This document shows positions 3,489 through 38,156 of a stretch of 64,000 nt of DNA, in pieces. The stretch comes from Terriglobales bacterium (lineage in GTDB: Bacteria; Acidobacteriota; Terriglobia; Terriglobales; Acidobacteriaceae): the NCBI GenBank assembly GCA_035561515.1, contig DATMXP010000040.1, positions 62,001 through 126,000 of the forward strand, read 5' to 3'. The notes under the pieces are model-generated. The model did no database searches. It saw only the letters and a list, made by a program, of their open reading frames with translations, and was not told the origin of the DNA. The translations under genes and the position numbers were made by a program. Position 1 is the first letter of the stretch; every line of letters begins with the position of its first letter.

Positions 3489-3732
3489 TGTCGAGCACGT
3501 AGCGCTTGTTCTGCACTTCGCCGATGGCGTCAAGCACACTGCGCAATGCCTTGGCGGTGCGTCCGGACTTGCCGATCACCTTACCCATCGCCTCTTCCGG
3601 AACGGTGAGTTCGAAGACGACTTCGCCTTCTTCATCGAACTGCTCGACCTCCACACCTTCGCTGCTGCCCACCAGGGCGGTAGCGAGGTCGGTCACGAGT
3701 GTCTTCACCTGCTCGTCAGTGACTTGGGGCAT
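3478..3732 (-). CDS. khpA: KhpA-type KH-domain RNA-binding protein
   Basis: This 84-residue protein is a single type II KH domain: VVFELTVPEEAMGKVIGKSG carries the GxxG loop (GKSG) that grips single-stranded RNA, followed by RTAKALRSVLDAI. In Gram-positive bacteria KhpA pairs with KhpB and affects cell division and sRNA metabolism. It is usually found, as here, between rpsP and rimM. An acidic N-terminal stretch (EGVEVEQFDEEGEVV) precedes the loop. The call is secure; its RNA partners in this organism are unknown. Confidence 0.93.
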   Translation of the reverse strand: MPQVTDEQVKTLVTDLATALVGSSEGVEVEQFDEEGEVVFELTVPEEAMGKVIGKSGRTAKALRSVLDAIGEVQNKRYVLDIVE

Positions 3733-3752
3733 TCGTTCCCTCGAAAGTTATC

Positions 3753-3791
3753 GGTGCCCCATGTCTGCCTTCTTTGGGCAAACGTGGGACT
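3753..3791. repeat. Diverged hairpin repeat related to family A
   Basis: GGTGCCCCATGTCTGCC, a short TTCTTT loop and GGGCAAACGTGGGAC form an imperfect hairpin with G-U pairs. It shares the GGTGCCCCAT head with the family A copies and lies between rpsP and khpA, so it is inside the operon transcript. Confidence 0.6.
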
Positions 3792-3795
3792 ACAA

Positions 3796-4047
3796 CTATG
3801 CTGCGGTTGTAGCCGCGGGCAGCTTCGAAACCAACACGCGAACGCGATCGGACATCTGCGCGCCCTTGCCCACCCAGTAATCCACACGTTCCCGCTTGAT
3901 GTTCACAGTCGCGGGGTTCGTGCGCGGATTGTACTGGCCAACGACCTCAACAGAACGGCCATTGCGGGCACGGTCTTTCTCGATCACGACGACACGGTAA
4001 TACGGTTGCTTGCGCGCTCCAACGCGCGCTAAACGAATCATCAGCAC
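3796..4047 (-). CDS. rpsP: 30S ribosomal protein S16
   Basis: The 83-residue protein carries the S16 signature MIRLARVGARKQPYYRVVV at its N-terminus, followed by GRSVEVVGQYNPR and a Trp-containing C-terminus (ERVDYWVGKGAQMSDRV). S16 is an early assembly protein of the 30S subunit. A GTG at 4047 has GGA 10 bases upstream and is the likelier start; an ATG at 4041 would give the textbook MIRL start. It is the first gene of the translation operon. Confidence 0.96.
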   Translation of the reverse strand: MLMIRLARVGARKQPYYRVVVIEKDRARNGRSVEVVGQYNPRTNPATVNIKRERVDYWVGKGAQMSDRVRVLVSKLPAATTAA

Positions 4048-4169
4048 GTTAACTGATTCCTTTTGTTGAATTTCCGGATTAGACCGATTGGAACGACCGA
4101 TCAGGACAAACCGGCAACACCAGCCTGCCAGCCCTCAAGACACACTGGGAGCAGGGGTGCAAACCGTTA

Positions 4170-4198
4170 TTATTACGTAAGTTGCCCCGTTTGGGCAA
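4170..4198 (-). promoter_or_regulatory. Candidate sigma-70 promoter for the rpsP operon
   Basis: Read on the minus strand, TTGCCC (4198-4193) is followed after 17 bases by TAATAA (4175-4170), with another T just after. It lies about 120 bases upstream of rpsP, in the gap after the STAS gene. A short TTGCCC/GGGCAA inverted repeat overlaps the -35 box. This is prediction from sequence only. Confidence 0.45.
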
Positions 4199-4221
4199 GC
4201 TGAACGTACCCAACCCACCGC

Positions 4222-4581
4222 TTACGGCATCTTCGTCAGATAAGCCCCGCAGTTCTCAAACGCATTCAGCAAATGCGTTATGCCGAACAACTGCTTCACC
4301 GGCCTGCTTAGATTGTAGAGTTGCAGGCGGCATCCAGCTGACCTCGACGAGACCAGAACCTGAACCAGCGCTCCCAACCCTGAGCTATCCAGGTGCGTTA
4401 CATCACAGAGGTCCAGCACGATCCTTTGATCGGGCCGAAACATCATTTTTACGTCGGCAAGAAACCCGGATGTCGCCCCTGCCACAAGTCGGCCCTTGCA
4501 CATCACGAGCAAGCCGTTCTCAATGCTCTCCGTTCGATAGCTGAAGTCCCGCCCTGCCTGTGTTCCTGCTTGTAATGCCAT
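4222..4581 (-). CDS. STAS-domain anti-sigma factor antagonist
   Basis: The 119-residue product is a single STAS domain of the SpoIIAA/RsbV type. The phosphorylatable serine lies in DLCDVTHLDSSGLGALVQVL near residue 67. Such proteins bind and sequester anti-sigma kinases when unphosphorylated, and are reactivated by PP2C-type phosphatases. No kinase or sigma gene is adjacent; two GAF-PP2C phosphatases lie elsewhere in the window (26652 and 47575). The start is an ATG preceded by GGGGGTGAG. The family is certain, the pathway unknown. Confidence 0.9.
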   Translation of the reverse strand: MALQAGTQAGRDFSYRTESIENGLLVMCKGRLVAGATSGFLADVKMMFRPDQRIVLDLCDVTHLDSSGLGALVQVLVSSRSAGCRLQLYNLSRPVKQLFGITHLLNAFENCGAYLTKMP

Positions 4582-34982: not shown

Positions 34983-35116
34983 GGAATGACCTCCATGCAA
35001 AATGCGGGGGATATCAACGGCAGAGTACTTCCCCACGGCACCCAAGACAACACGAAAGTTACTCGTCAGCCACCGTCAGTCACTGACCTTCCGACTGCTG
35101 CCCCTATCCGACGACG

Positions 35117-35159
35117 GGTGCCCCATCCTATTCGCCCCAGCGAATAGGGTGGGGTGAGA
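35117..35159. repeat. Hairpin repeat family A, copy 3
   Basis: GGTGCCCCATCCTATTCGC, CCCA and GCGAATAGGGTGGGGTGAGA. The long arms CCCCATCCTATTCGC and GCGAATAGGGTGGGG pair with one wobble. Confidence 0.82.
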
Positions 35160-35305: not shown

Positions 35306-35322
35306 CTGGGTGCTGGGAACTG

Positions 35323-35365
35323 GGTGCCCCATCCTATTCGCGCCAGCGAATAGGGTGGGGTGAGA
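35323..35365. repeat. Hairpin repeat family A, copy 4
   Basis: GGTGCCCCATCCTATTCGC, GCCA and GCGAATAGGGTGGGGTGAGA, differing from copy 3 at only one or two positions. From 35366 to 35681 I see no gene; the sequence becomes markedly more AT-rich. Confidence 0.82.
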
Positions 35366-35929: not shown

Positions 35930-35945
35930 ATCACAATTTTGTGAT
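35930..35945. promoter_or_regulatory. Candidate operator palindrome abutting the toxin start
   Basis: ATCACAA-TT-TTGTGAT is a perfect 7-bp inverted repeat that ends at the base before the toxin ATG (35946). A second, shorter inverted repeat (TGTCT-AA-AGACA) lies at 35919-35930. Toxin-antitoxin operons are usually autorepressed by the antitoxin at such sites; binding here is inference. Confidence 0.6.
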
Positions 35946-36365
35946 ATGCTCATCTGGACGTTTTATGAATTCGTTCATGGCGTTTCCACTGATCGCGGAA
36001 TCATCAGCACTGATATGCCCGCCGGCGCGCAAGCCGAACTGGACGTCATCCTCTCGGAAGAGTTGGGGCGCATTCCCTATCATGAATGGGGTGTCCCGAG
36101 TTTTAAGCCCTTGGGTCATGGAATGGGCGAAATTAGGTTTAAGTATGGTGGCGCCCAGTACCGGGTATTCGGCGCGTTGGGACATGGTGGTGGTAACTAC
36201 AACTTTTGGATGGTCGCAACTAAGAATCGAAAACGGAAGAATCTCCAGGCGACAGATCCGCCAAATGCAATTGAAACGGCGCATAAAAGGAAGAGCGCTT
36301 ACGAACTTCGGAGAGAAGGCAGGCTAAGGAAATATGATCCCTCGGGGGCTAGTGAAGAAACTTAG
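35946..36365 (+). CDS. HigB/RelE-superfamily toxin-like protein
   Basis: The 139-residue protein follows the pattern of HigB/Gp49-type toxins: TFYEFVHGVS at the N-terminus, AELDVILSEELGRIPYHEWG near 30, GMGEIRFKYGGAQYRVFGAL near 60, FWMVATKNRKRKN near 87, then DPPNAIETAHKRKSAYELRR. RelE-fold toxins cleave mRNA, often on the ribosome; the basic residues and the final helix fit. The ATG has no Shine-Dalgarno and a palindrome abuts it. The gene overlaps the antitoxin gene by 32 bases. Toxicity is inferred from family. Confidence 0.8.
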   Translation: MLIWTFYEFVHGVSTDRGIISTDMPAGAQAELDVILSEELGRIPYHEWGVPSFKPLGHGMGEIRFKYGGAQYRVFGALGHGGGNYNFWMVATKNRKRKNLQATDPPNAIETAHKRKSAYELRREGRLRKYDPSGASEET

Positions 36366-36954
36366 CAATATTGAATATCGGCGGCAGTTCGTTTCGGCTC
36401 AAGTTAGACGAACTATTACGTCGCAGATGCGTAAGTTACGCATACAACGGAATTGGGACCAAGCAGAGTTGGGCCAGCAGTCAGGAATGAAACCGCACGC
36501 AATTTCTCGGTTGGAGAATCCTGATTACGGAAATTTTACAGTTAACACCCTACTTCGGATCGCAAACGCCTTTGACGTCGGTCTGATTGTCAGATTCGCT
36601 CCATTTTCCGACCTCGCTAAATGGAACCAATCTGTAACAGAAACCGATTTCACCCCCCCGAGTTTTAGTGATGATCGGGGACTTTGGCCGATTAAAAGAG
36701 AGAACCAGGGTGCGTTCTATCGTCCTTCTCCGCTTGAAAGAGAGTTTAGAAACGCAAAAGCTCTAGGGGTAGTTCCTCCGGTAAGGGAGGCTGAAAACCC
36801 AGATGTTCGAACTGTATATGCTGGGATTGCATCGAATCCCACCAACGTAAAACCGGGCACCCAACTGGAACCCCCCGCCGTTCACCCGGTTTCTTTTACG
36901 TATTTATCGCAGGCTGCCGCATTTAGAGAGGATTCGAGATGGCCGACACAGTAA
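36334..36954 (+). CDS. XRE-type antitoxin-like DNA-binding protein with long C-terminal tail
   Basis: The 206-residue protein has a helix-turn-helix domain at about residues 30-85 (QMRKLRIQRNWDQAELGQQS, MKPHAISRLENPDYGNF, then LLRIANAFDVGLIVRFAPFS). The VGLIVRF-x-PFS-x-L-x-W ending is typical of XRE antitoxins paired with HigB toxins. The remaining 100 or more residues (for example FRNAKALGVVPPVREAENPD) are Pro-rich and not part of the usual antitoxin. AAGGA lies just upstream of its ATG. It overlaps the toxin by 32 bases and the third gene by 16. Confidence 0.82.
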   Translation: MIPRGLVKKLSNIEYRRQFVSAQVRRTITSQMRKLRIQRNWDQAELGQQSGMKPHAISRLENPDYGNFTVNTLLRIANAFDVGLIVRFAPFSDLAKWNQSVTETDFTPPSFSDDRGLWPIKRENQGAFYRPSPLEREFRNAKALGVVPPVREAENPDVRTVYAGIASNPTNVKPGTQLEPPAVHPVSFTYLSQAAAFREDSRWPTQ

Positions 36955-37304
36955 GAACCCCGGACTTTAAGTCGTTTTATGCTAACAATGTGCGTTTCGA
37001 ATCTACGGTGTTCGATCTACGCTTGTTTTTTGGAGAACTCGATCATCGAGAAGACGAGAGTTGGATCATCTCCCAGAAGGCGTCAGTCGTCATGGCTTGG
37101 TCGCAGGCCAAGATAGCTGCGTTGTTTTTACTCGTCAACGTAATGGCACACGAACAACAGAACGGACCAGTAGATCTCCCTGCGAATCTATTGCCACCGT
37201 GGTTGCTACCCGAAGATTCAGAGCTGTCGCTAGAGGAGTTGGTCGGAACCGTGGCCGATAAGTTCAATTCGTTCGTCGCACAACAACAAGAACAGCAGAA
37301 GTGA
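36939..37304 (+). CDS. DUF3467-like protein, third gene of the toxin-antitoxin cluster
   Basis: The 121-residue acidic protein resembles DUF3467: FYANNVRFESTVFDLRLFFG near residue 13, then a run WIISQKASVVMAWSQAKIAA with a hydrophobic helix and a Gln-rich C-terminus (FVAQQQEQQK). AGAGGA lies about 6 bases before the ATG. DUF3467 has no known biochemical role. The overlap with the antitoxin gene (16 bases) argues for co-translation, so it may be part of the system. The domain call is by pattern only. Confidence 0.65.
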   Translation: MADTVRTPDFKSFYANNVRFESTVFDLRLFFGELDHREDESWIISQKASVVMAWSQAKIAALFLLVNVMAHEQQNGPVDLPANLLPPWLLPEDSELSLEELVGTVADKFNSFVAQQQEQQK

Positions 37305-37422: not shown

Positions 37423-37453
37423 CAGGCCGCCGAAAATCGGCGGCCTGCTTTAA
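37423..37453. terminator. Bidirectional terminator after the three-gene cluster
   Basis: CAGGCCGCCGA, a three-A loop and TCGGCGGCCTG form a perfect 11-bp stem followed by CTTTAAC on plus; on minus it is followed by AACTTTTTGG. It serves the rightward cluster and the leftward gene ending at 37479. Confidence 0.85.
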
Positions 37454-37478: not shown

Positions 37479-38156
37479 TTACCGCCCGATTGGCTTAACT
37501 TCCACTATCTCCGCTGGCCAGTAGTCCCTTCCCGGCGTCGCATGCCAGTTAGCCAATGGTGTTCTCTGCACGATGCGAAGGAAGCCCATCGACTCGGCCG
37601 GGAGTTCGAAATACTCCCGCAACAACCCTTGTCCGTATGCATCCACCAGCAGGCTTGTAACTACTCCGCCCTCCCCGCTGAGAATTCTTCCCAAGTCGGG
37701 TAATGCCCCGCCTACAGGTTGGTTACTGATTAGGTCGACCACCAGGGTGAAATGACCAAGCATCGCAGGCGCGCCGTAATAGCAAACCTCGGCAAAGCCG
37801 TGGCCGATCACCGGCGTGCCGTCTTCGCCCAGGAAACTCCTCATAAATGCGTTCTTCCCTTGCAGCACGATGTGGACCTGCGTCCTTCCATCAGCCAATG
37901 CCTTCTCGGTTATGTCTCCGTTGAAGGTCGGACCAAAACCCGGTACCCCGCATTGTTCGATGAGCAGATACCGATTATTAACACCCGCTATATCGAGCAC
38001 TCCCCAGTAGGGTGAATTCAACGCCATCCAGAACGTGAGGTTTTCCTGTGCGCTGATGAAGTCCTCGATCGGACGATGACTCACTTGCGCTACAAGCATG
38101 CTGGAGGCCAGCAATAAGAGCAACGATACCGTCAACACTGTGCATGAGCGACGCAT
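37479..38156 (-). CDS. Secreted protein of unknown function
   Basis: The 225-residue protein has a Sec signal peptide (CTVLTVSLLLLLASSMLVAQ) and a soluble body with Gly-rich segments (FLGEDGTPVIGHGFAEVCYY) and three cysteines. AAGGA lies 6 bases before the ATG. No domain is recognised. It could be a periplasmic or surface protein, but there is no basis for a specific role. It is leftward, convergent with the toxin-antitoxin cluster. Confidence 0.7.
   Translation of the reverse strand: MRRSCTVLTVSLLLLLASSMLVAQVSHRPIEDFISAQENLTFWMALNSPYWGVLDIAGVNNRYLLIEQCGVPGFGPTFNGDITEKALADGRTQVHIVLQGKNAFMRSFLGEDGTPVIGHGFAEVCYYGAPAMLGHFTLVVDLISNQPVGGALPDLGRILSGEGGVVTSLLVDAYGQGLLREYFELPAESMGFLRIVQRTPLANWHATPGRDYWPAEIVEVKPIGR

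Follow-up and report, generated by a model that had tools for sequence, protein, structure and literature searches.

A three-gene module of a Terriglobales bacterium (a soil member of the Acidobacteriota) is, with a probability that we put somewhat above even, a chaperone-addicted, three-part type II toxin-antitoxin (TA) system that resembles the SecB-TAC systems and contains a DUF3467 protein in place of SecB. The DUF3467 protein is probably a built-in helper, which keeps an antitoxin carrying a long C-terminal tail functional. The module occupies positions 35946-37304 of the window, i.e. the whole stretch of 64,000 nucleotides that was analyzed, and consists of three overlapping ORFs on the + strand.

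35946-36365, + strand: toxin gene (139 aa)
36334-36954, + strand: antitoxin gene (206 aa)
36334-36666, + strand: N-terminal part of the antitoxin (residues 1-111), with the HTH_3 (XRE/HigA) DNA-binding domain and a conserved FAPFSDLAKW...PSF region
36667-36951, + strand: C-terminal tail of the antitoxin (95 residues), which may bind the third protein
36939-37304, + strand: third gene, DUF3467 protein (121 aa)
35930-35945: ATCACAATTTTGTGAT, perfect palindrome abutting the toxin start codon, candidate operator
37423-37447: hairpin (-23.8 kcal/mol, z -5.95) between the operon and a convergent gene (37479-38156, minus strand)

The overlaps of 32 bases (toxin/antitoxin) and 16 bases (antitoxin/third gene) given in the preliminary description are borne out by the ORF coordinates, and all three products had been correctly named there. 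As in SecB-TAC, the TA pair and the third gene thus form a compact operon, the order of which is kept in relatives.

Gene products and surroundings of the module

By homology, the toxin appears to be a ribosome-dependent mRNase of the HigB/RelE (Gp49-like) type. When compared with Pfam PF05973 (Gp49), the window toxin scored 19.4 bits for a cut-off of 23.9, and the toxins of two relatives passed this cut-off (L034, 24.7 bits; L104, 24.8 bits). Furthermore, a profile built from five toxin relatives matched the HigB1 structures 7nbu and 7awk (E = 5e-4). The assignment is firmer because these relatives pass the Gp49 cut-off and the profile retrieves HigB1; the best solved relative of the profile is M. 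tuberculosis HigB1, itself a TAC toxin. Residues G59, E62, R64, R73 and G76 were invariant in the alignment of the five relatives, and the catalytic residues of the window toxin were compared with those of M. tuberculosis HigB1 by their spacing only.

The antitoxin gene adjoins the toxin gene downstream, and its product contains an HTH_3 domain (PF01381) at residues 32-84 (37.2 bits, cut-off 23). The extra tail claimed for this protein is indeed present, more than 100 residues extending beyond the HTH_3 domain. In the AlphaFold2 model, confident helices were obtained for residues 13-80. Most of the tail was given a pLDDT below 50 and is predicted to be disordered, although these low values may partly reflect a shallow alignment, the model being built on seven sequences. 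Alignments showed that the tail varies in length and sequence between relatives, and no clear short tail motif was common to the antitoxin alignments across families.

The third protein, first assigned to DUF3467 by pattern only, passed the gathering cut-off of Pfam PF11950 (25.8 bits, cut-off 25, E = 1.1e-5), and the Y-A-N, D-hydrophobic-x-F-G and G-x-I pattern of this family is conserved in it. Among its relatives, scores over the cut-off were obtained for L161 (40.5 bits), L154 (37.9 bits) and L167 (25.4 bits) and scores under it for L004 (20.4 bits) and L033 (20.5 bits). Since L161 and L154 score well over the cut-off, the doubt arising from the marginal score of the window protein is removed. 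Outside the Acidobacteriota, DUF3467 is also present in Bacteroidota, Deinococcota and archaea. The AlphaFold2 model of this protein (mean pLDDT 83.6) consists of three antiparallel strands, a long helix of 22 residues, a Pro-rich loop and, at the C terminus, another helix. No significant fold match was found by Foldseek in the PDB (best E 0.34) or in a viral fold library, and a search of the PDB sequences at E up to 10 gave no match.

The module was said to lie in an AT-rich island, which is confirmed by its GC content of 0.497 compared with 0.573 for the window, placing it in the lowest 1.3% or so of stretches of the same size. The neighbouring "cluster of hairpin repeats" is reduced to two near-identical copies of 44 nt (35116-35159 and 35322-35365); the repeat exists in three copies genome-wide, all of them inside about 2.2 kb of this region. 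The case for a terminator shared by the three genes, which had also been proposed, is weak: a strong hairpin is found at 37423-37447, but its T-tract is on the minus strand and serves the convergent gene.

Co-occurrence of antitoxin tails and third genes

Many related genomes share the order of the three genes, among them genomes that keep the third gene beside HigBA homologues. About 18 distinct three-gene loci with divergent sequences were collected, all from Acidobacteriota. A search of genome contigs with the antitoxin sequence gave no match. In order to examine the association from the opposite side, relatives were searched by their antitoxin domains, and the tail length and the downstream gene were then scored.

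Thirty antitoxins of the HI1420 family were obtained in this way. Tails of 2-29 aa were observed in 28 of them, none with DUF3467 downstream, and the other two, L149 (tail of 107 residues) and L146 (117 residues), were the only ones followed by DUF3467 (p 0.0023). Sixteen loci contained an HTH domain of the window type (HigA relatives); in ten of these the tail was 52 residues or longer (the class limit being 50), and in six it was short. A third gene was present in 9/10 tailed and 0/6 short-tailed HigA relatives: it encoded DUF3467 at four loci (the window, L161, L167 and L168) and an unrelated protein of about 225 residues at five (L160, L162, L163, L165 and L166), and the tenth locus, L164, had a 70-aa tail and no recognised third gene. 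When both sets were combined, a third gene followed 11 of 12 tailed antitoxins (six DUF3467, five the ~225-residue protein) and none of 34 untailed ones, with a Fisher p of about 1e-9 which is indicative only, because the loci share descent. The coupling of the tail to the third gene is supported by this co-occurrence; the tail may contact the third protein, as suggested earlier.

The unrelated third protein (about 222-235 residues; third genes also L175-L178 and L181) has no Pfam or NCBIfam match. Its gene comes third, behind that of a tailed HigA-like antitoxin, and in L160, L162 and L163 the two genes overlap.

These data also bear on the reading in which the third gene stands beside a HigBA pair as an unrelated passenger. 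A solitary DUF3467 gene is indeed found elsewhere in the same genome (L001), so that the family has a non-TA role. However, this copy belongs to a clade of ~98-residue solitary proteins that branches separately with 100/100 support, and no HigBA-like or HI1419/20-like gene was found within 1.5 kb of any of the 93 loci fetched for this clade (some of them fetched twice). Compared with the Pfam family DUF3467 as such, the TA-linked proteins are longer (about 120-150 aa), have an extra C-terminal helix and are genetically tied to TA genes. The passenger reading, to which we give almost no credence, is refuted by the conservation of the divergent three-gene loci and by the co-occurrence of tail and third gene.

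Exchange of toxin-antitoxin partners

When loci were searched by the DUF3467 sequence alone, TA linkage not being a criterion, L004, L005, L006, L033, L034, L038, L074, L083, L104, L107 and L108 were retrieved. In each of these, DUF3467 is immediately preceded by a toxin gene, an antitoxin gene or both, in the same order. The association is broader than first described: three kinds of TA pair accompany DUF3467, namely HigB/HigA, HI1419/HI1420 and a pair made up of a CdiA-type RNase and a zinc-finger protein, and the third slot itself is exchangeable. HI1419/HI1420 pairs were identified at L004 and L005, where both TIGR02683 and TIGR02684 scored over their cut-offs, and L074 (its antitoxin by the Pfam HI1420 model) and L154 are also of this type. 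At L105, L106 and L109, a small RNase-like protein is followed by a zinc-finger protein, the C-terminal part of which is long, and then by DUF3467. The small protein of L106 matches the structure 8ey4, a PT-VENN domain toxin (E = 1e-6); the RNase/zinc-finger assignment of these three loci is less certain, above all for L109. On the DUF3467 tree, the HigBA and HI1419/20 labels each change at least twice on well-supported branches, which shows that third genes and TA pairs have recombined.

This exchange has to be weighed against the main rival explanation, in which DUF3467 would be a second regulator or co-antitoxin, acting as a tail-bound co-repressor or by direct contact with the toxin and tuning autorepression or neutralisation, with no folding or stabilising role. 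The gene overlaps would fix the stoichiometry of such a component, and operator-like palindromes are found 5' of the toxin gene. The palindrome ATCACAATTTTGTGAT taken alone is within chance, since 10% of shuffles of the upstream stretch score equally. Similar TGTGAT/ATCAC palindromes, situated 5-45 nt 5' of the toxin gene, are nevertheless found at L004, L005, L104, L107, L154 and L161, and their recurrence is consistent with autorepression. Third components with other roles are also known, in HigBA-HigX (PMC13384398), HipBST and SpoIISABC, where a TA pair is likewise accompanied by a third gene. HigX, however, works on its own and lacks conserved synteny, and the third parts of these systems are unrelated to DUF3467. 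Furthermore, DUF3467 matched no DNA-binding family in profile scans and accompanies toxins and antitoxins of differing families. As one DUF3467 family serves different TA families, the common element is the tail and not a shared toxin or operator. We thus regard a co-regulator as rather unlikely.

By eye, the frames upstream of L105 and L106 resemble ISXO2-type transposases, and L040 has lost its 5' end beside a transposase-like frame; L036 and L037 are truncated at the ends of their contigs. No TA gene was found at the DUF3467 locus L110, where a divergent DUF3467 (about 1447-1875, 71 bits) is preceded by a frame of 481 residues that has no Pfam match. Judged by eye, this frame resembles a phage tail protein, and the L110 copy may be a prophage copy. 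At L033, an MqsA-type antitoxin gene (3515-4225; TIGR03830, at cut-off) lies directly downstream of the DUF3467 module, hinting at a TA cluster.

Comparison with SecB-TAC and possible mechanism

In the TAC systems, a C-terminal extension destabilises the antitoxin and recruits a SecB-like chaperone, and the pair can be moved from one antitoxin to another (PMC5105189, PMC6377645). The present module shares with M. tuberculosis HigB1-HigA1-SecB-TA the toxin-antitoxin-third gene order and the HigBA core. Also common to both are a variable antitoxin extension that is missing from two-gene relatives, a third family serving several TA families and the occurrence of a solitary protein related to the third one. 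Two-gene HigBA and HI1419/HI1420 systems (TIGR02683/TIGR02684) possess the same toxin and antitoxin domains, but their antitoxins are short, without tail or third gene. The differences from SecB-TAC concern the partners, which include HI1419/HI1420 and RNase/zinc-finger pairs here and HicAB and MqsRA there, and the third protein, DUF3467, which has no detectable relationship to SecB: no similarity to SecB (PF02556) was found in Pfam scans with E values up to 1, and no SecB structure was among the 50 Foldseek PDB matches listed.

A SecB fold was considered for DUF3467, as the order of elements (sheet, long helix, loop, helix) is alike. SecB is made of four strands and two helices (PMC4257090), whereas the DUF3467 model has three strands, and this candidate was rejected because neither the sequence nor the fold searches supported it. 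In 120 related genomes, no SecB scored over the cut-off. The sole SecB-like match in these genomes (L158, G023:C410) reached 25.0 bits for a cut-off of 26 and is situated at a contig end.

By analogy, these loci show the TAC genomic signature: tails that go with third genes, several antitoxin families, variable tails, a compact operon and a TAC-like toxin. DUF3467 in the role of SecB is the simplest reading of this signature. Against it count the lack of similarity to SecB, the lack of a conserved tail motif, the tailed locus L164, the occurrence of the ~225-residue protein without TA genes (L179 and L180) and the restriction to one phylum.

In the mechanism that we propose, the toxin would be a ribosome-dependent RNase cutting mRNA in this strain, and the HTH half of the antitoxin would repress the operon and neutralise the toxin. 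The disordered C-terminal tail would render the antitoxin unstable or aggregation-prone unless it is bound by DUF3467. The latter, translated from the same overlapping mRNA, would bind the tail and stabilise the antitoxin. Upon loss or diversion of DUF3467 by stress, phage or competing clients, the antitoxin would be degraded and the toxin freed.

A further reading extends this mechanism by naming its trigger: DUF3467 would be the sensor of a defence module, holding the tailed antitoxin and releasing it when a phage product or a stress client competes, as proposed for TAC-like defence systems such as CmdTAC. SecB-TAC systems that defend against phages provide a precedent (PMC11618068, PMC9519451), and the variable tails, the patchy distribution and the AT-rich island would fit such a function. 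However, PADLOC gave no match for the toxin or the third protein and only weak generic HTH matches, and no defence gene was present among the scanned window genes around the module. Searches of plasmids, phages and viral contigs retrieved no relevant copy of the module, with one weak plasmid match (E 0.3). A defence sensor is therefore judged improbable.

We found no description of a coupling between DUF3467 and TA genes, which is apparently new and a variation on the TAC theme. In the literature searched, mostly outside subscription journals and without the main TAC survey, DUF3467 was never linked to TA systems and appeared in a single unrelated paper, and PF11950 in none. The family, so far without known function, gains a testable role and a candidate client, the antitoxin tail. 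This suggests that chaperone addiction is a general design open to different small proteins and not a peculiarity of SecB, and the correlation between tail and third gene offers a simple genome-mining route to more such helpers. We give about even chances to the broader proposal that DUF3467 founds a second, SecB-independent TAC class, in which small client-specific chaperones have been repeatedly captured by unrelated TA families via interchangeable disordered tails, with the ~225-residue protein as a further class. The latter protein is a second candidate helper of the same kind.
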